64,000 nucleotides of DNA, from the NCBI RefSeq assembly GCF_016859285.1, contig NC_053407.1:18844699-18908698 (forward strand), read 5' to 3'. Source of the DNA: Xiphias gladius. Its lineage: Eukaryota > Chordata > Actinopteri > Istiophoriformes > Xiphiidae. Position numbers and translations under genes: made by a program. Positions 46,660 through 63,300 of the stretch are shown here, piece by piece; within the stretch, counting starts at the first letter, position 1; the number at the start of each line of letters is the position of its first letter. A model generated the notes under the pieces. The model made no database searches and was not told the DNA's origin. It was given only the letters and a program-made list of their open reading frames with translations.

Positions 46660-47158
46660 ATGAAAAGCAAACCCAGGAAGTCGGACGCGTCGGATTCAAA
46701 GGCTAAGGCGAGGAAAAGACCCGCGGAGAACTCTGCTCCAACTCTTTCAAAAAAACTACGAGACAAGAAAGATGGAGAAACATCCAAAGCAGGTGCGGAT
46801 TCCCCGACGGGACCGTGTCAGCACAGCGTCGGTGTACGCGAGTTACACTCTTGTCACGTCGGTTGATTGAGCGACGGGTTTGTCTTTACAGGGCCTCCTC
46901 CCAAGTCTGCGGGAGTCCAGAGGAGAGGTGGGCATGGGAGCATCCTGCACTACATTTACAAGAGCACCCTGGGACAAAGTCTTCACTCGCAGATGAGACA
47001 GGTGAGACTGCTGGGATCCAAGAATGGGACAGAGGAAGGGACTCTAAGGAGTAATCGAATACCGACACTGATAAAGTGTAACCTGAAGTGAAGCCATAAC
47101 TCTGTTTAAAATACATGCGAATACAGGGAGGAACTCGAGGCACATTTAAATATACAAG

Positions 47159-47230
<72 letters not shown>

Positions 47231-50200
47231 GCATGCGCGCATCATCTAATCATCTAATTATCTAATTGTTTATTGTATTGAAATATGCACTTTATCAGGT
47301 CCGTCTGTACAATTTAATGCAATCCAATACAACCGATCTGCCAAAAATTCTGCATTTAGGAAGTTTACAATATTCAGTTTTTGTTGATTCTGTCAGAGAG
47401 GTGTTGATTCAACTAATATGATTATTATCAAGGTCGTACTTAGTGGTGGTGTTGTATCCCCCCCCCTCATGTTTGTAGTTGAGGTGGGCAAAAAATTACA
47501 GACACCTGTCAGGTTAATGCAGTCCACTTCAACACCACTGCAAACTACAACGTCAATAATAAACATATCGTTGAATCAACACCTCTCTGCCAGTATCAAC
47601 AAAAACTGTAAATTGTAAACTTCCTAAATGCAGAATTTTTGGCTGAGCTGTTGTATTGGATTGCACTGGATTTACAGGTGTACCTAATAAAGTGGCTACT
47701 GAATTGTGGAGGAATATTTTTTTATAGACTACAAGATTAATTAATTAGTCAATCCTTTGAGGACACATACTAAAGGACAGAAGTTGGAAACTCATATGCA
47801 GTATGTATCTGAAATGTATAGATCGGTTGCCTTTTATCATTTCCATTAACTTTAATTGGAGTCAAAACACTCATACCACAGCTCAGCACCTGGCAGGTTG
47901 TATTTTGTTACCTCCTGTACAAGGTCAGATAGTCAGTCGGGTGTATGTCGAATCTCCTTATATAGAAAATATATTTCCAGTGCGTAACGGTGAGCAGTTG
48001 TACATTTAACTCTCTTTCAGTGTCTGCAGGAGCCGTTCGTTCGCTCTCTGTCGTCCTATCATTTCCACAGCGCTTCCAGCCCCTTCGACCGCCGAATCAC
48101 CAGCCTGGAGTGGCATCCCACCCACCGCACCACTCTGGCTGTGGGGTCCAAGGGTGGAGACATTTATCTGTGGGACTTTGAGGTCCCCACAAATAAAACT
48201 TTTATTCAGGGGGTGAGTTCCTGTATGGTGGTGGTGTTTGTTTTACCTGATACTTGAATGATCCAAAGTGTGAGGTGTTCAACAAGTTAAATTTTTTTTA
48301 AATTTTTTTATTTTTTCTATTTATTTATTTTTTAATGTTGCTTTATCCAACACTTGAGGAAACAATTACATTTTGAGTCTGTAGTTAATTTGAGAACTGT
48401 GCAATTTAGATTTATGTGACTTCAAACTCTCATTGGTTTTCTGCTCAGATGGGGGCTGGAGACTCAATTACAGACATGAAGTTTAACCAGTTAAATCCGA
48501 GTCAGCTGTTCACCTCGTCTATTGGGGGTATGACAGCACTTCGAGATTTCAATGGGACAACTCTAACAGTGTTTGCCAACACAGACACACTGAAGTAAGA
48601 CTGAATAAAATAAAAATTCAAAAAAGGTTTTAGGTTTTCGGCCTGATCAGTCTGGCATCAGTCTTCTTTTCAGGTGGCCCCTATTGTTTTAATGCTACAC
48701 GTGTGTGGTGTATGTAGGGTGTGGCTAATAACTGCCCTGTGATCGGCCTGCATTTGTGTTTGTGTGCAACAGAATGGTGCGGGAGACTTCATTGGAGGGA
48801 TGAAGTTTTGCCCCATGGACGTTTCAAGAGTCTATGTGGCCTCTGGCGAGGGCACACTGACCATGCAGAGCTTTGAGGGCCGCACACCCACCATACTGTC
48901 CAGAACCCAAGACTGTGGCCATGATCACCACAATGTTTGGTGAGAAAACTGCAGAGAGGACTGATGCTCAGCAAAGAGAGATGATTTGATCTTTTTATTA
49001 ATTTGATGCCAGCATTTAACGCTGCTGTCCAATAAAAATCACGCTTTTCCAAAATGTCAACGCATTTCTTATCTTATTGTATTATCCTACTATTAGTTTA
49101 AAAAAAATATTTAACCAAAAAAGAAAAAATCCAGATTTTTAGATGTTCGATCAGGAAATTTTCCTCTTTTGTATCATCAGTTTTACATTCATTTTTTCTT
49201 TGTCGTATCCAGTGAATTCACTATGTTCCTTGTTGCCTTACACAGTTATTGGTACTGCTGTGTGGATGTGTCTGTGAGCCGACAGATGCTTGTGACAGGA
49301 GACAATATGGGACAGCTCTTACTCCTGGGCTTGGATGGACAAAAGGTGTGTGTTTACTCCTCAATGAAGTAGCTAATTCAAGTGCAAAGAGAGTAATCTT
49401 CTGTCTGTATTTTAGTGAGGCAACAGCAGCCTCCTATTGTCTTTTGAGGCATATTATTCATATTACTCATACAAACCAGAACATATTTTAATAAAAACAA
49501 GAATAATGGGTATTATATTTGTTCAGAGCCTTGTTTTCCATTTCAACATTGTAGATTTTCAGTAACAAGCTGCACAAAGCCAAAGTGACCCATGCAGAGT
49601 TCAACTCCCGATGTGATTGGTTGTTGGCGACGGCCTCAGTTGACCACACGGTGAAGCTTTGGGACCTGAGGAACATAAAAGACAAGAAGAGCTTCCTGCA
49701 TGAAATGCCTCACGAGAGAGCTGTCAACTCAGGTAACACTCTCTTTTAGAAATGAATTTTTCTTACTAATGTCGATTTAAAGTTTAGTCTTTAAGTCTTT
49801 CAGTCTTTGCAGCATACACTGTTTTTCAGAAATTCAGCAGTTTACAAGCATTAAGACATTTGTGCAATATAAACTATTTAAATATAAACTCTATGTAGTT
49901 TAACATCCTGAGTTTTGAAGGGACCTCTAATAATGTCATTTTTGGTAGAAGATGCAAGTGATTTCTTTGTTGTCCCATTTAGTCCAAGTCTGAACTTAGT
50001 CTGTCTTCTGAATGAGTTTATGAAGAGATTAGTTTGAAAAAACCTAAAAGACCTTTACGGCCACGATTTGTCTTACAATTGCTACGGCCACTGGTCGTAA
50101 AGAGAGAATTTTGGCAAAACTGTTACTGTCGTCTCCTCACAGCCTTCTTCAACCCGCTGGACTGCTCCAAGTTGCTCACAACAGATCAGTACGACCAGAT

Positions 50201-51773
50201 CCGCGTCTACTCGTCCCCTGATTGGTCGAAGCCTCAACATATCATTCAACATCCACACAGACAGTTTCAGCATCTCACACCCATTAAGGTTGGTTTCTTC
50301 TCCAGGTGTGTGTGTGTGTGTGTGTGTGTCCTCTTGTAACTTCTGCAGGAATTAATGACTTCAATCAACCCGATGGAGAGAAAAACATAACTAACAAATA
50401 ACCTTTTATTTGCGCATGCGATCGAAGCACATGCACAAACAGCATGTGAATAAGACACAGACATCATTACATATGTCCACGGTTAAAAGTTTAAATCCTG
50501 GGTTGCGCTGTGGATAGTTTTGATGTTGACATTGTTGTTGCAGACAAGGCACATAATAGACTTTTTTTTTTTTTTTTTAATGGAATGAGCAGCATTCATG
50601 TAAAGGATATCTCCGTAGTCAAGCGTGGAGAGGATTGTCGCGTCAAGAAAAACATGCTTTACTCTGATACAACATCCTTTTTTATCTTTACAGCCATCTA
50701 ACAAAATTTCAACCTGTTTCCAAGACTGAAAAGCCTTTTAGCCCATGAGCTGTAAAAATGGAAGAAAAGATATTCAGTGAAATTACTGGTTCTTTTGAAT
50801 GAAACACATTTCGTCATATCTGCATTCAGTACAAGTTTGAGAGAGGGCGGAGATGTCTTAAGAAAGTCAAATTGTAATCTAGTCATGTCTTGACGGGAAC
50901 AGCCAAAGGAATATGCTGCTGTGCCATTCGTCTCCAAACGGGTATAAGAAACATTTGGAGAAATGATATTATTATTCGTGTAATTTATAGATAATACTGG
51001 ACCAGGTGGTATTCGAAGAGACGTGCCGGGGGGGAAGCAATATCTTATCATTTGTATGTGCTTGATCAATTTTGTAGTATACCATTTGTGACAATATAAT
51101 ACTGTTATTGTTTTGTAGGCCACATGGCACCCGGTATATGACCTGATTGTTGCTGGCCGCTACCCTGATGAACGTGTTTGCTCCGGCGATCAGAGGACCA
51201 TCGACATCTTTGATTCCAACACAGCAGAGCTCGTGTGTCAGCTGCACGATCCCACTGCTTCGGGGATCAAATCTGTGAGCATCCTTTTAAAAACACAAGA
51301 AAAAATGTAAAGACGCTAAAACTGAAGTTATTACACCTGGAATTCTGTATTTTCAGATCAACAAATTCAATCCGATGGGTGATGTGATTGGATCCGGCAT
51401 GGGTGAGTTTTTCAGAAGCACATTATCGATAGATGTGTTGTTCTGATGACTTGCTTTAAATCAGCTCTGTGAGAAAATGTAAAATTGTCTCACCAAAGCC
51501 GCATCACGTTCACTCACAGGTGTGACTGTGCTAGTCTGGGACAGGAACGAGTCATTGATCAGCGATCGGCAGACAGTGCATGAGGACAGCCCGACCTCGG
51601 TGGACAGTCTAAGAGGGCGGAGGAGTCAGCAGCGCTCCAGTAGGGACCGGAGGCGTCCCGCTGTGGATGCAAAGCTCAAGAAGAAACTGGCTTCTCTGGA
51701 AGAATCTGAGACCAAAACCAAGACCAAGACTGACTGTACAAAACAAAAACAAGTGCAGATGAGGAAGAAGTGA
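46660..51773 (+). CDS. ddb2: DNA damage-binding protein 2 (DDB2/XPE), with alternative exon 5
   Basis: WD40 propeller that recognises UV photoproducts in chromatin and recruits the DDB1-CUL4-RBX1 ubiquitin ligase, starting global-genome nucleotide excision repair. Coding exons: 46660-46792, 46892-47001, 48021-48212, then 5a 48449-48594 or 5b 48773-48939, then 49246-49345, 49555-49732, 50143-50288, 51119-51274, 51357-51402, 51520-51773. Phases agree throughout; the product is 486 residues with 5a or 493 with 5b (zebrafish about 496, human 427). Visible: basic N-terminus; the helical segment before the propeller ([12 protein letters not shown]); FDRR and SKGGD (counterparts of human R112 and K132 at the DNA face); the lesion-wedge motif FQH at about residues 328-330 within [15 protein letters not shown] in exon 7 (the human R273 region, DDB1 docking). 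The start is set by the acceptor at 46,650 and the first ATG after it. The C-terminus carries a basic extension after the last WD strand (VLVWDRN), absent from human. Confidence 0.96.
47160..47238. repeat. (GT)n microsatellite in ddb2 intron
   Basis: A long, almost pure GT run about 160 bp after the donor of coding exon 2. Confidence 0.95.
47287..47705. mobile_element. Foldback (palindromic) MITE in ddb2 intron
   Basis: The left arm (47,287-47,440) and right arm (47,535-47,705) are near-perfect inverted repeats: aaaaattctgcatttaggaa at left pairs with ttcctaaatgcagaattttt at right, and gagaggtgttgattcaac with gttgaatcaacacctctc. Outer ends read cactttatcagg and cctaataaagtgg. No coding capacity. 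A longer, more diverged relative with the same ends lies at 55,285-56,128. Confidence 0.8.
48449..48594 (+). CDS. ddb2: ddb2 exon 5a (canonical version of the duplicated exon)
   Basis: 146 nt, phase 0 to phase 2, acceptor CTGCTCAG, donor GTAAGA. Starts [12 protein letters not shown] and ends FANTDTL plus a split Asn codon. It aligns with human IGAGGSITGLKFNPLN and with zebrafish MGAGDAITGMKFNQFN, so it is the standard form of propeller blade 2. Confidence 0.93.
48773..48939 (+). CDS. ddb2: ddb2 exon 5b, candidate mutually exclusive duplicate of exon 5a
   Basis: 167 nt, acceptor GTGTGCAACAG, donor GTGAGA, phase 0 to phase 2, exactly like 5a. It starts [12 protein letters not shown], continues [17 protein letters not shown] and ends [12 protein letters not shown] plus a split Cys codon completed by the same downstream exon (YWYCCVDVS). 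There is no stop in frame, and about a third of residues match 5a over the alignable 37 positions. Joining 5a to 5b shifts the frame and meets a TGA ten codons later; omitting both also breaks the frame. Real use in mRNA is inferred; the intact frame and splice signals argue against a dead copy. Confidence 0.75.
50305..50328. repeat. (GT)n microsatellite next to a ddb2 donor site
   Basis: Pure GT run beginning about 17 nt after the donor of the exon ending at 50,288. Confidence 0.9.
50480..50960 (-). mobile_element. LINE reverse-transcriptase fragment, decayed, in ddb2 intron
   Basis: On the minus strand [16 protein letters not shown] (about 50,790-50,850) matches the LINE reverse-transcriptase segment '[15 protein letters not shown]'. 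Downstream, in another frame, [17 protein letters not shown] (about 50,590-50,640) matches 'LPILDYGDIVYMNA' near the end of the same domain. Frame changes and stops show it is dead. Probably an L2- or Rex1-like LINE, antisense to ddb2. Confidence 0.65.
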
Positions 51774-52612: not shown

Positions 52613-53386
52613 TTAAGCATAACTGAAGAGATAATTTCCACGTAGTTGGTGGACCGTAACATTCGCCAGCTGGAGGAGCACTCCACCCCAGGCCTCCTGT
52701 TCCTCTTTTCTCTCCTGATGCCCGGCCTGGTGGGCAGAGTAAACCATGCTCAGGACAAGACTTTCAAACTGTGTCTGAGTCAGCGGCCTCTTCCTCTGCT
52801 CCTCCAATGTGGTCAGCATCTGTACCATTGAGCTCAGACTTCTGGGAATGTTGTCATTGATCTGAGACAGGAACGCTCGCCCCGCCCTCATCGAAGCCAT
52901 CTCCTTATCAAGCAGGACGATGTTGTTGTCCTGGTCGATCTCTACCCCGCCCAGCAAAAACTGCACACAAGAAAGAAAAAGAAAAATCCATCAATTACTA
53001 AAGTAAAACATTGCAAGATGTTTAATTTATCTGCACGTAGACTTGTAGAAAGTACCTCAAACATCCGGTCTGCATCAATCATTTGAGAAGTTGGACCTTG
53101 GCCTGCAGCCACATCTAAAGTAGAAAAATACTGAAGTTTAACCGAGGCGTAAATGAAATAAGTTACTGCAGATAAACTGTCAGTGCTCCCGGACGCTAAA
53201 ACTAGAAATCTGTTTTGCTAGTTTTAATGCAAATTGCACAAAGCATGCAGTACCATTATGTAACAATGTTCAAAATTTCTGTCCACAGAACCGTTTGAAA
53301 ATCCTCAGTTTCTACTTACCCTGCAGCACTTGTTTAGACCAAAGCCACAAAAGGACCTGGAGGCCGATTTTAAGTTGTAATTTCAT
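52613..53386 (-). CDS. fam180b: FAM180 family secreted protein, probably FAM180B
   Basis: Three exons, 53386-53320, 53114-53056 and 52960-52613, with matching phases, give 157 residues plus stop. The N-terminus MKLQLKIGLQVLLWLW is a plausible signal peptide; a start two codons upstream (53,392) is also possible. The body matches FAM180A from memory: EFLLGGVEIDQDNNIVLLD resembles [20 protein letters not shown], followed by ASMRAGRAFLSQINDNIPRS and TQFESLVLSMVYSAHQA. The family's function is unknown. The B form is preferred because human FAM180B is near KBTBD4 on 11p11.2. The gene is tail-to-tail with ddb2 and divergent from kbtbd4. Confidence 0.85.
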
Positions 53387-56128: not shown

Positions 56129-56174
56129 AATGGCTGACATGCTGTTTGGTGGCTTTGTCAGGAAAGCAGCAAAG

Positions 56175-58472
56175 ATGGAGTCCAGTGAGGAGGGGGGCCT
56201 CAGTGTCGGGGGCTCTATGGGAGAGGAGAACTACTTCTTGGGATACACCTTCACCGACCGCTCCCACTCCAGCCGGGTGGTGAAGAGCATCATGGACCTG
56301 TGCCTGGAGGACGGCCTGTTCGCTGATGTCACCATTACTGTGGACAGCAAAGAGTTTCACCTTCACCGACTCGTGCTCTCAGCGCAGAGCAGTTTCTTCC
56401 GCTCCATGTTCACCTCTAACCTTAAAGAGTCCCACAACCGCGCTATTGAGTTGAAAGATGTCAGTGCCACTGTCTTTCAGCTGCTGATTGACTACATCTA
56501 CCACGGCACAATTAAACTGAGGGTAGAGGAGCTGCAGGACACTTATGAGATGGCAGACATGTACCAGCTGACGGCTCTGTTTGAGGAATGCTCCCGCTTT
56601 CTCTCACGGACAGTGGAGGTCAAGAGCTGCCTGCAGGTAAGTCACTGTTTTAAGTAAGTCTCTGCTACTTAACAGTGATTGTGTAGGGTCAGTTTTATGA
56701 TTACCTGTTTTTTGTTCAGGTGATGTGGCTTGCAGACAGACACAGTGACCAGGAGTTGTATACTGCTGCTAAGCACTGTGCTAAAATCCACTTGGCCCAG
56801 CTGCATCAGACTGAAGAATTTCTCAATCTGCCTCTCTGTCTGCTCTTGGACATCATCAAAGGTATAACTGTTTGTGGTTCTGGCACCATGTGCCAGGGTA
56901 ACTAGTGTTATTGCATATTAAGACCATGTACTACATTTCACATACACTTAACCGAACTGTTATCCTTTCTCCTAAGCACACCTTTCTTTTTTATGTGTTG
57001 GAATTTATTTCTTCTTACCTTCCACAAAACGTTTAGTTTGTATTCATTTTGTATGATATAAAATAATGAGTAAGAGAATCTTGAAAGTTGCTTCATATAG
57101 GTAATCATTCATAATAAATATTGTGTCCATAGTGTCTATCTTTGCTTTTGTCAGACTTTAACCTATGTTAAAGAATAGTTCGATTTGAAAGGTCTTAACT
57201 ATGTTATCATGTGGTGGTAACAGAAATTTGATCAAAACAAAAGTAGAAATTATGTACACTGTGGTGGGTTACCTTTCTCAAGTCAAGTTTCATGCCTCTA
57301 CAAACAGATTTTCATACTGTACCCAGTTAACTCAAAACGAGCAGCTTCATGAATTTGATTCAAAAGGTCTTGTGTTTGTGGTCAGATGGCGTTCCAAGCT
57401 CCCAGAATCCAACAGTGGCAATCGAGTCGTGGATAAACCACAACAAGGTGGAGAGAGAGGAGTTTTCTTGTATCCTCCAAGAAAATCTCAAGGTTTTCAT
57501 TTTTTCATTTAGAGCTGGAAAATATTTTTGAAGCAGGTGCATTCATTTAATTTGTGTTGAAATGATTTGTATCTGTGATATATGATATCTCTTTATCTTC
57601 TATCTCCTCAGGAAATTGGTGAGAATGTCCACATTTACCTGATCGGTAAAGAGGAGACAAGGACTCACTCCTTGGCTGTGTCACTTCACTGTGACGAGGA
57701 TGATGCGATCAGCGTGAGTGGCCAGAACAGTTTATGCCATCAGATCACTGCAGCCTGTAAACACGGAGGGGACCTGTACGTGGTGGGGGGGTCTATCCCT
57801 CGCCGCATGTGGAAGTGCAACATGCACACCATGGACTGGGAGCGCTGTGCCCCACTGCCCAGAGACCGCCTCCACCACACCATGGTCTCTGTCTCTACTG
57901 AGGATGCAATCTACTCACTAGGAGGTAAGACCTTGCAAGACACACTCTCTAATGCCGTCATCTACTACACAGTGAAGGACAACATGTGGACAGAGACCAG
58001 CCAGCTGGACACTGCAGTGTCCGGGGCTGCTGGCGTTAACCTGGGAGGTACCATCTACCTGCTTGGAGGGGAGGAGAATGACATGGACTTTTTTACTAAG
58101 CCATCCCGTCTCATTCAGTGCTTTGACACCTCCTCCCAGAAGTGTCAGATCAAACCTTACATGCTGCCGTTTGCGGGCTGCATGCACGCCGCTGTCCACA
58201 TGGACGTGATCTTTATCGTAGCAGAAGGAGACTCCCTTGTGTGCTACAACCCTCTGCTGGAGAGCTTCACCCGCCTGCGCTTCCCTGAGGTGTGGAGCTG
58301 TGTCCCTTCACTGTGGAAGGTGGCCAGCTGTAACGGCTGCATATATGTCTTCAGGGACAAATGCAAGAAAGGTGACGCAAACACGTTAAAGTTTAACCCG
58401 GCTACATCTGTCGTCTCCGTTATAAGAGGTATAAAAATCCTCCTCACAAACTGGCAGTTTGTTCTGGCCTGA
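56175..58472 (+). CDS. kbtbd4: Kelch repeat and BTB domain-containing protein 4
   Basis: Substrate adaptor for a CUL3-RBX1 ubiquitin ligase; the human protein targets chromatin co-repressors (CoREST) and is mutated in medulloblastoma. Exons 56175-56636, 56720-56861, 57386-57492 and 57612-58472 give 523 residues (human about 518). The BTB domain is at about residues 30-145 (SRVVKSIMDLCLEDGLFADV, HRLVLSAQSSFFRSMF), then BACK (about 150-245, including VPSSQNPTVAIESWI), then kelch repeats (DLYVVGGSIPRRMW, AIYSLGGKTL, TIYLLGGEENDMDFF) to the stop after LTNWQFVLA. The start MESSEEGG aligns with human MESPEEPG. An upstream in-frame ATG at 56,130 would add 15 residues (MADMLFGGFVRKAAK), but an acceptor-like TTTGTCAG at 56,154-56,161 suggests it is intronic. 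The donor after LQENLK is GTTTTC, which is weak. Confidence 0.96.
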
Positions 58473-60348: not shown

Positions 60349-63300
60349 ATGGGCCAGGACCAAACTAAGCAGCAGATAGAGAAGGGCCTGAGGCTGTATC
60401 AGTCCAATCAGACAGACAAAGCCCTGCATGTGTGGACAAAAGTGCTGGAGAAGACCTCAGATCCTGGAGGGAAGTTTCGGGTGTTGGGGTGTCTGATCAC
60501 AGCTCACTCAGAGATGGGAAAATATAAAGATATGCTCAAGGTAAGCCTCAGTACAACAGAATGCTACATACAATAACTTAATGCAATTTAATTAAACAAA
60601 TAACATATAATCAGTGTATATTGATGAGTATTCTTAAAAGTTTAATTTTGGGATAATGTGAATCTAAGCGATGCTAGATTTTGCTTGTGTAAAAAGTTCA
60701 TTAATATTCCTACTCTGAAAAGCTTTGTGATCACTTGGTTTAGATAATTCATGTCAAGACATTTGTCACATTTTTAATACTGCGTGATCATTTCTCACGT
60801 TGTGCAACCAACAGTTGGGTGTGTATGTGTGTGTGTTATTGAGTGAGGTTGCAGTCCTAATGAGTGAATGCCACTGAATATCTCATCAGTTTTATATGTC
60901 GTCATGTCTGCTCGGGACTGGTACAGTTCACGCTGTTGTAGCATTTTAACATTCCTGCAATGTCCAAGTGATTATTGATCGACAAGAGGTCAAGGGGTAC
61001 TTTCTTTCGTTCCATTTACAGTGATCTTGAAGAGCATGGGTTAATTTGTGGCTTCCACACGATGCAGAGTAAATAAGTGCCCTGCAACCTGAGTATCAGT
61101 GTGGGGTGTCTTGTTGACATAATCATCTTTACTCAAGCAGCACCCACTCTCTCTCACCTATAGGACTTTATAAAGTAGGGGCCTTATGTCTTTGAATTTG
61201 TCAGATCATTTCTCTTTTATTCAGTATTTATTTGAATTTAAGACTGCCCATCTTATTATTTGCATTTGCCTGCAAGTTTTCCATCACCTTACTCTCGCTC
61301 TCTCTCCCCGCAGTACGCCCTCGATCAAATCGACACAGCCAGAGAAATGGAGGACCCAGACTACCTGACAGAGGGCTACCTGAACCTGGCGCGCAGCAAC
61401 GAGAAGCTGTGCGACTTCCAGAAAACTGTCTCCTACTGTAAGACCTGCTTAAACATGCAGGGCACCACGGTCAGTCTGCAGCTCAATGGACAGGTATGTC
61501 TTAGCATGGGCAACGCCTTCCTGGGCCTCAGTGTCTTCCAGAAAGCTTTGGAGAGTTACGAGAAGGCCCTGCGCTACGCACACAACAATGACGACAAGAT
61601 GCTGGAGTGCAGAGTGTGCTGCAGTCTGGGAAACATCTACGTCCAACTTAAGGTACTCAATATACTGCTTTTAGTCAAATGAGATTTGATTGTTCTAAAT
61701 CTGGCTGTAAGCTGATTTTGATTATCTTAATATGTGCTGCTCTGCAAATACAATCCCAGTCTTTGTTCTTTTATGAGACGTTTCAGATAAGGAGACTGAA
61801 TAAAAGCCTACTAAAAAAATCTAAACCACTCAGATAGTTGCAGACTTCTGAGCTATGTTACTTTGGCAAACATTCATTGGACTGCACGTGCAATTTGATT
61901 GCGCAATCATTACCGATGTTGCCAGTGTATTTGTAGAGTATGATAACACTGCAGAGCATCCAAGGGAACATCATCAATGATTAGCTCATGTAGTACTGGG
62001 CATTGTAAAACAAGGGTGGAGCGAGTAGGCTGGCTGGCTGGCTGGCAGGGGGGGTTTATGTAGTACCCTTGACATCAGAGATTTGTAAGAGTAATCCCCC
62101 GGCTTCCCAGGGAGGATTGGTTTCAATGGGGTTGTGGTGAAGTGGTGTTTGAAGAATGCACTCATATGTCACATTATTTTCTGAAACAAAAAATATAATA
62201 TGGTTGTTGGTGATCCTGGGGCATGCGGGCCATCAAACGCTCACAGTTTCTGGGCAGATTCTTTATTTTAATGCTGCCAAAGGTTGAATCGTCATGGAAA
62301 AAAAATTGCAAACCAAAAAGTCCATGTCGGTAGTAACTAAATAGGATGTAGTTCCATTTGTGGGCAATTTTGAACATAAGAGGTCTGACTCATGGTTCAC
62401 ATCTGCCAACAGGACTATGAGAAAGCCCTGTTCTTCCCCTGCAAAGCAGCTGAGCTCGTCAATGACTATGGCAAGGGTTGGAGCCTCAAGTATCGAGCCA
62501 TGAGCCAGTACCACATGTCTGTAGCCTACAGGAAACTGGAGCGCCTGCCAGACGCCATGGAGTGCTGTGAGGTATTGTTTTATAACCATCCAACACGTGA
62601 TTGCTGTCCTCAGAGACAAACTTACATAACTTATGGAGAATGTCACAGTTTTGGTTTCCCCACCCAACCCGCTGTCCCCCGATGCCTTTGGCTGTTCTGA
62701 TGTTGGAGCTGCAGATACAGTAGATGTTGTGCCGCTGACAGGTGCAAGTGCCAGTTGCTCTGTTGTACCAGGCCTTAGACCTCTACAGAAATATGCTCAC
62801 AGAGGCACTGGTTTAAAGTGTTAATGAAGAGGGTGGGTTTAGTATTTACTCTGTTCTAATTATGTACTCTGGGTGAAAAATAACTTGATGACATTGCCTT
62901 GAAGTGTAAAAGTATAGTAACAAAACAGCAGGAACCATTTCAGATTTATACTTGCCAAAAACATTTAGCGAATCAATTTACACGTCTTGTCATATTAGAA
63001 TACCAGAGTACAAGAGGAGTCCTAAGAGTGAGACAACAACATCTCACATTCCCCATAACTTCTCACTGTGGCTCAGTTGAAAATATAGTGATACTGAAAC
63101 TGCAAAATTTAAATTACTGAATGAAATATGCAACTGTAGTTCACTGGAATTATTTTCAGGATTTACATGTTGTTATTGTGATGGTAAACAATTCTGTGCT
63201 AAAGTTATAAGGCAAAGCATTCTGAAGAATCTTCGCTTTAATTAGCATAAATCATGAAGGTTAGGGTTTTACGCTAAAATTAAGTACATTATAAACATAT

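Follow-up and report, generated by a model that had tools for sequence, protein, structure and literature searches.

Mutually exclusive duplicated exons are already well described; in human, 236 tandem duplicated exon substitution events are annotated, most of them ancient and more than 90% common to bony fish, and their key functional residues are reported to be usually kept, their sequence changes to be mostly conservative and the events to be enriched in brain and muscle functions (PMC9741552). Another well-placed comparison is the pair of OGDH exons 4a/4b, a mutually exclusive vertebrate pair with a short intervening intron; in human, its exclusion is enforced by branch points lying 25–41 nt from the donor (PMC7969005). 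The pair of exons analysed here, 5a and 5b of a fish ddb2 gene, resembles the human events in having adjacent homologous exons, the same phases and a full protein from either exon; unlike them, exon 5b alters residues aligned to lesion contacts and inserts seven others, in a DNA-repair sensor, and the use of the pair is a prediction. It is also like the OGDH pair in its short intervening intron; its exclusion is a prediction. We consider the ddb2 pair to be real, probably functional and situated in an unusually telling place.

DDB2 is a main sensor of cyclobutane pyrimidine dimers (CPD) in chromatin, and its gene is defective in xeroderma pigmentosum group E. Splicing variants of human DDB2 were reportedly described as dominant-negative by Inoki et al. 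in 2004; these are said to lose parts of the protein, with no homologous exon swapped in. What they have in common with the fish pair is that both represent alternative DDB2 splicing, which in the fish is a prediction. Among the papers listed by literature searches on DDB2 splicing, fish exon duplication, fish DNA repair and 5b-like peptides there was no mutually exclusive or duplicated DDB2 exon pair, in agreement with an earlier note on this DNA whose author knew of no description, and Ensembl/NCBI gene models may already predict both exons. The main text of a zebrafish/cavefish ddb2 paper (PMC7891740) is without “splic”, “isoform” or “intron”.

The window, that is, the whole 64-kb stretch of fish DNA analysed, contains a complete ddb2 gene on the + strand at 46660–51773, with its ATG at 46660 and a stop codon ending at 51773 (Table 1). 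Judged by its full-length similarity to DDB2 of known structure, this gene is DDB2: the 5a isoform matches PDB DDB2 chains with E values of 6.2e-184 (4a08_B) and 1.7e-133 (9j8w_L), the similarity covering residues 51–414 of 486. In the gene model, exon 5a is the fourth coding exon; the names 5a, 5b and 6 are kept from the earlier note. Downstream of ddb2, between 52613 and 61682, lie open reading frames for a FAM180 protein (52613–52966, - strand), a BTB + Kelch protein (56130–58472) and a TPR protein (61260–61682; weak Rapsyn_N match). These neighbours resemble the surroundings of human DDB2 at 11p11.2 (FAM180B, KBTBD4, RAPSN). Intron 2 of ddb2 carries a long imperfect, MITE-like inverted repeat at about 47300–47660, before exon 3, where a control placement from 47251 scored 143; a long GT microsatellite at about 47160–47225 adjoins this repeat.

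Table 1. Features of the fish ddb2 locus, in window positions
Feature	Position	Strand	Description
ddb2 coding exons	46660-46792, 46892-47001, 48021-48212, [5a or 5b], 49246-49345, 49555-49732, 50143-50288, 51119-51274, 51357-51402, 51520-51773	+	both isoforms open; PDB similarity; tblastn
Exon 5a	48449-48594	+	146 nt, phase 0 to 2; 48 residues + (N) across junction
Exon 5b	48773-48939	+	167 nt, phase 0 to 2; 55 residues + (C) across junction
Exon 6	49246-49345	+	common downstream partner, begins YWYCC; Trp aligns with human W203
39-nt direct repeat, copy 1	48446-48484	+	CAG of the acceptor and the 36 nt of 5a after it; 74% identity between the copies
39-nt direct repeat, copy 2	48770-48808	+	CAG of the acceptor and the 36 nt of 5b after it
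Candidate stem, 5' arm	48655-48673	+	84% complementary to 3' arm; ends on AG of acceptor-like site at 48674
Candidate stem, 3' arm	48949-48967	+	starts 10 nt past 5b end
Candidate 5b branch point	48724-48730	+	CTAAT, A at 48728; 45 nt from 5b acceptor, 134 nt from 5a donor; pattern match only

The intron between 5a and 5b is 178 nt long, and the GT/AG dinucleotides are in place. Exon 5a alone gives a protein of 486 aa and exon 5b alone one of 493 aa, both open to the stop at 51773 and joining exon 6 as ...TDTLN-YWYCC and ...HHNVC-YWYCC, respectively. Inclusion of both exons brings in a TGA ten codons past their junction, for a product of 203 aa in total, and the omission of both shifts the frame so that a stop follows after 181 aa. 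The earlier note had given the same coordinates, lengths, intron and phases, the same two junctions with exon 6, a stop about ten codons into the double inclusion and a broken frame upon skipping, and all of this is borne out, as is its description of a phase-matched tandem duplicate with two coding-like copies whose swap exchanges most of one WD40 segment. What is seen here of the features that define mutually exclusive exons is the common origin of adjacent exons, the same entry and exit phase fitting the neighbours, and joint inclusion or skipping that is unproductive. In sequence terms, this is a real tandem exon duplication in this fish ddb2 gene, both copies of which look protein-coding.

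That 5b is a genuine copy of 5a is best appreciated against what the window offers by chance. The control comprised 701 acceptors on both strands that open a phase-0 exon of 120–200 nt and of length 3n+2, in 1116 acceptor-donor pairs. In local BLOSUM62 alignments, the 5b peptide scores 76 with fish 5a, 85 with the human and 78 with the zebrafish peptide. The best of the other candidates reach 34, 37 and 35, once 5a itself, the form of 5a extended upstream and a sub-frame within 5b are set aside. An open AG-to-GT stretch could resemble a WD40 blade by accident, since weak patterns are common to such blades and unrelated open stretches in the window reach 37; the scores of 76–85 lie far from this, and 5b matches DDB2 specifically. 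A phmmer search of 177,635 PDB sequences with the 5b peptide yields 12 matches with E <= 10; DDB2 takes the first 8 places (E 2.5e-4 to 3.3e-3), and the remaining 4 have E >= 0.094. Against 5a, 5b scores 76, and against all other parts of this protein at most 29, no better than shuffles, which average 27 and reach 47; 5b is therefore a copy of the 5a exon and not of another blade. The 39-nt start of 5b is 74% identical to that of 5a, and the homology extends beyond this DNA-similar start, as codons 14–41 score higher than every one of 20,000 shuffles, whichever of the three references is used. An accidental likeness is, to our judgement, extremely improbable. To the 5a peptide, these 8 sequences are much more similar (E 4.3e-15 to 1.2e-11). 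The earlier note gave human and zebrafish DDB2 the 5a form alone, a statement supported for these PDB constructs only; the entries taken to be zebrafish are presumed so, as the match table names no organism.

That exon 5b is maintained is favoured by its coding bias, by its splice sites and by simulations of drift. Its frame 0 carries 0.32 bits per codon, a value reached by 0 of 1340 overlapping non-coding windows (maximum 0.10), with 0.21 for 5a. Caveats are that this very gene supplied the training data of the coding model, that G+C is far lower in the introns and that the two remaining frames of 5b are not markedly negative. With a splice-site matrix of approximate frequencies, the 5b donor scores 7.13 within the range of the gene's ten donors (4.12–11.35), and the 5b acceptor scores 4.94, among the weaker of the ten acceptors (4.10–8.75). 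It outscores 89.7% of the 4160 AGs in the window (97.3% for the 5a acceptor). Over 41 comparable codons, 5a and 5b agree at 45 of 82 first and second positions and at 10 of 41 third positions (Fisher p 0.0019), the pattern expected if the amino acids were conserved and silent sites became saturated. The NG86 method gave a dN of 0.70 and no dS, so that dN/dS is not computable because dS is saturated. Third positions are identical in 8 of 13 cases in codons 1–13 and 2 of 28 in codons 14–41; the age or history of 5b is thus uneven along its length, its start having been held or converted by local constraint or gene conversion. In simulations of neutral drift, the frame and the AG/GT dinucleotides were kept in 173–198 of 4000 runs at 37% amino acid identity, and at 0.6 substitutions per site 74, 16 and 11 of 3000 copies survived with 0, 0.05 and 0.1 indels per substitution. 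Because 680 of 3000 drifting copies survive a low divergence of 0.2 per site without indels, selection on 5b is inferred and not measured. Our reading, as seen from one genome, is that the duplication is old and that selection has kept it coding.

How the cell would choose between the two exons can be proposed in outline. Spliced in singly, either 5a or 5b leaves exons 4 and 6 in frame, and both or neither truncate the protein. The decay of messages with such premature stops is established knowledge; nonsense-mediated decay would remove the unproductive products, leaving surviving mRNA that carries one exon or the other. In addition, a 19-nt stem between the introns on either side of 5b may loop this exon out, together with its branch-point candidate and acceptor, and make 5a the default. 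This stem forms in the minimum-energy fold of 48595–49245 with 18 of 19 bases paired; by ungapped score, 1 of 500 shuffles is as good for that intron pair, one of three tried, and the 412 control placements across the window include 3 as high; in terms of duplex energy, 9 of 200 shuffles do equally well. For another pair, intron 4 with the 5a-5b intron, the count is 19 of 500 shuffles, and by itself the 178-nt intron shows no unusual structure (z -0.31). As a selector between 5a and 5b, the stem is suggestive.

The 5' arm of the stem coincides with a strong acceptor-like site, CATCAGTCTTCTTTTCAG followed by G (window 48655–48674, exon start 48674), which scores 10.29, the best in 48213–49250 and above all ten real acceptors. 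An exon 5b lengthened to this site would run into an in-frame TGA, reached after 22 codons from exon 4, and the site is possibly a decoy or a poison extension of 5b. Just upstream of exon 6, two further acceptor-like sites at 49181 and 49213 score 7.58 and 8.75 against 7.85 for the real one. Steric exclusion by too short an intron is unlikely, the best-placed branch-point candidate lying 134 nt from the 5a donor; a CTGAT exists at 52 nt from this donor, but later AGs intervene before the 5b acceptor. The mechanism described for human OGDH (PMC7969005) is consequently not indicated, and exclusion would need the frame, through unproductive double inclusion, and/or regulation.

Two other accounts of 5b draw on these same observations. 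It could be a decaying relic of the exon duplication, recently dropped from use and open by luck; its weak acceptor (4.94) fits with this, as do its long branch, of 1.0 substitutions per site in comparison with 0.2–0.3 for the three 5a forms, and the stem and decoy acceptor that obstruct it. Yet the open frame, both splice sites and the 3n+2 length persist where few neutral copies would retain them, and the codon signature of 5b is as strong as that of 5a, which makes a relic unlikely in our eyes. Alternatively, 5b could be a regulatory “poison” exon, its own protein being irrelevant, that when joined after 5a lowers DDB2 via decay triggered by the TGA. The 203-aa product does stop with several junctions downstream, and the strong acceptor at 48674 would lead to a premature TGA as well; however, a poison exon needs none of the features of 5b, neither the long open frame 0, nor the similarity to DDB2 protein, nor a donor phase fitting exon 6, nor conservation at codon positions 1 and 2, and regulation by double inclusion is compatible with a coding role. 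We regard a purely regulatory 5b as improbable to about the same degree as a relic. The preferred reading, which we hold to be likely, is that 5a and 5b go back to an old tandem duplication in this fish ddb2 gene, that both have been retained as coding exons and that each message uses just one of them.

As to the age of this duplication, 5b is identical to the fish 5a, zebrafish and human segments at 15, 14 and 16 of 41 positions, respectively, and these three are identical among themselves at 21–26 of 41. The best tree (four sequences, 56 columns) places 5b outside the pair formed by fish 5a and zebrafish, i.e. the duplication precedes their split; the alternative with 5a and 5b as sisters is 2.8 log units worse, a difference that is not significant (p-AU 0.21). 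At fixed fish-human differences, 5b sides with fish at 2 columns, with human at 3 and with neither at 3. If the duplication predates the split of this fish from zebrafish, the latter should have, or have lost, 5b. Searches of viral and prokaryotic contigs with the 5b isoform (421 aa, without its C-terminal tail) and with an alignment returned 11, 86, 33 and 49 pattern-matching stretches, none encoding a relative; being made up of viruses and prokaryotes, the collections are uninformative on fish.

The segment being exchanged is of direct relevance to lesion reading. In the cryo-EM structure of human UV-DDB bound to the nucleosome (9J8W), described in 2025, the CPD is in direct contact with DDB2 residues G154, A155, G156, I200, N201 and W203; the two methyl groups of the dimer are read by I200 and N201, a pair that lies away from 6-4PP or abasic lesions (PMC12606344). 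By alignment, human residues 153–201 are the equivalent of the exon 5a segment, so that five of these six reported contacts (G154, A155, G156, I200 and N201) lie inside it, the sixth, W203, being encoded by exon 6 and common to both isoforms. Of the FQH hairpin and the R112, K132 and K244 backbone-contact region expected outside exon 5, one 13-residue stretch was mapped, and both isoforms have it. Exon 5b keeps the GAG, inserts the seven Cys/His-rich residues DCGHDHH between the positions of human 198 and 199, and has V-C at the positions of I200-N201. Lesion-contact positions vary among 5a forms too, since 200–201 are W-D in zebrafish and L-N in the 5a of this fish, and 155 is P in zebrafish.

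Going by alignment to the published structure, the 5b isoform would thus be a DDB2 in which the GAG turn and the exon 6 Trp are kept and I200-N201 is replaced by V-C behind a seven-residue insert, with an altered CPD-reading loop as the predicted outcome. The earlier note had proposed altered lesion recognition; this idea is strengthened, in that the segment contains five of the six CPD contacts and 5b changes the last two and adds seven residues, and the effect on binding is a prediction. The swap is expected to affect CPD reading, in whatever direction and to whatever extent, and the Cys/His content of the insert suggests a putative metal site. A bolder version would make of this gene two UV-damage sensors, with a usual CPD pocket from 5a, a Cys/His-rich loop at the lesion pocket from 5b, placed immediately ahead of YWYCC, that is possibly metal- or redox-sensitive and gives another lesion spectrum (e.g. 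bulky, 6-4 or abasic lesions and not CPD), and a switchable RNA stem choosing between them; taken as a whole, this is doubtful and we would not give it much credence.

In marine medaka, DDB2 is one of 274 genes reported to be under positive selection (PMC7493909). Comparisons of fish DDB2 proteins that mix both exon forms could mimic rapid evolution, and if the underlying models mix 5a and 5b forms, the medaka signal could be an artefact of exon choice.

What is new here is the mapping to the swapped segment of five of the six human CPD contacts reported in the structure paper. If both exons are used, one gene could make two different UV-damage sensors; if true, this would amount to a natural substitution experiment on the damage-reading pocket of DDB2, in which lesion specificity would be testable with two natural isoforms.
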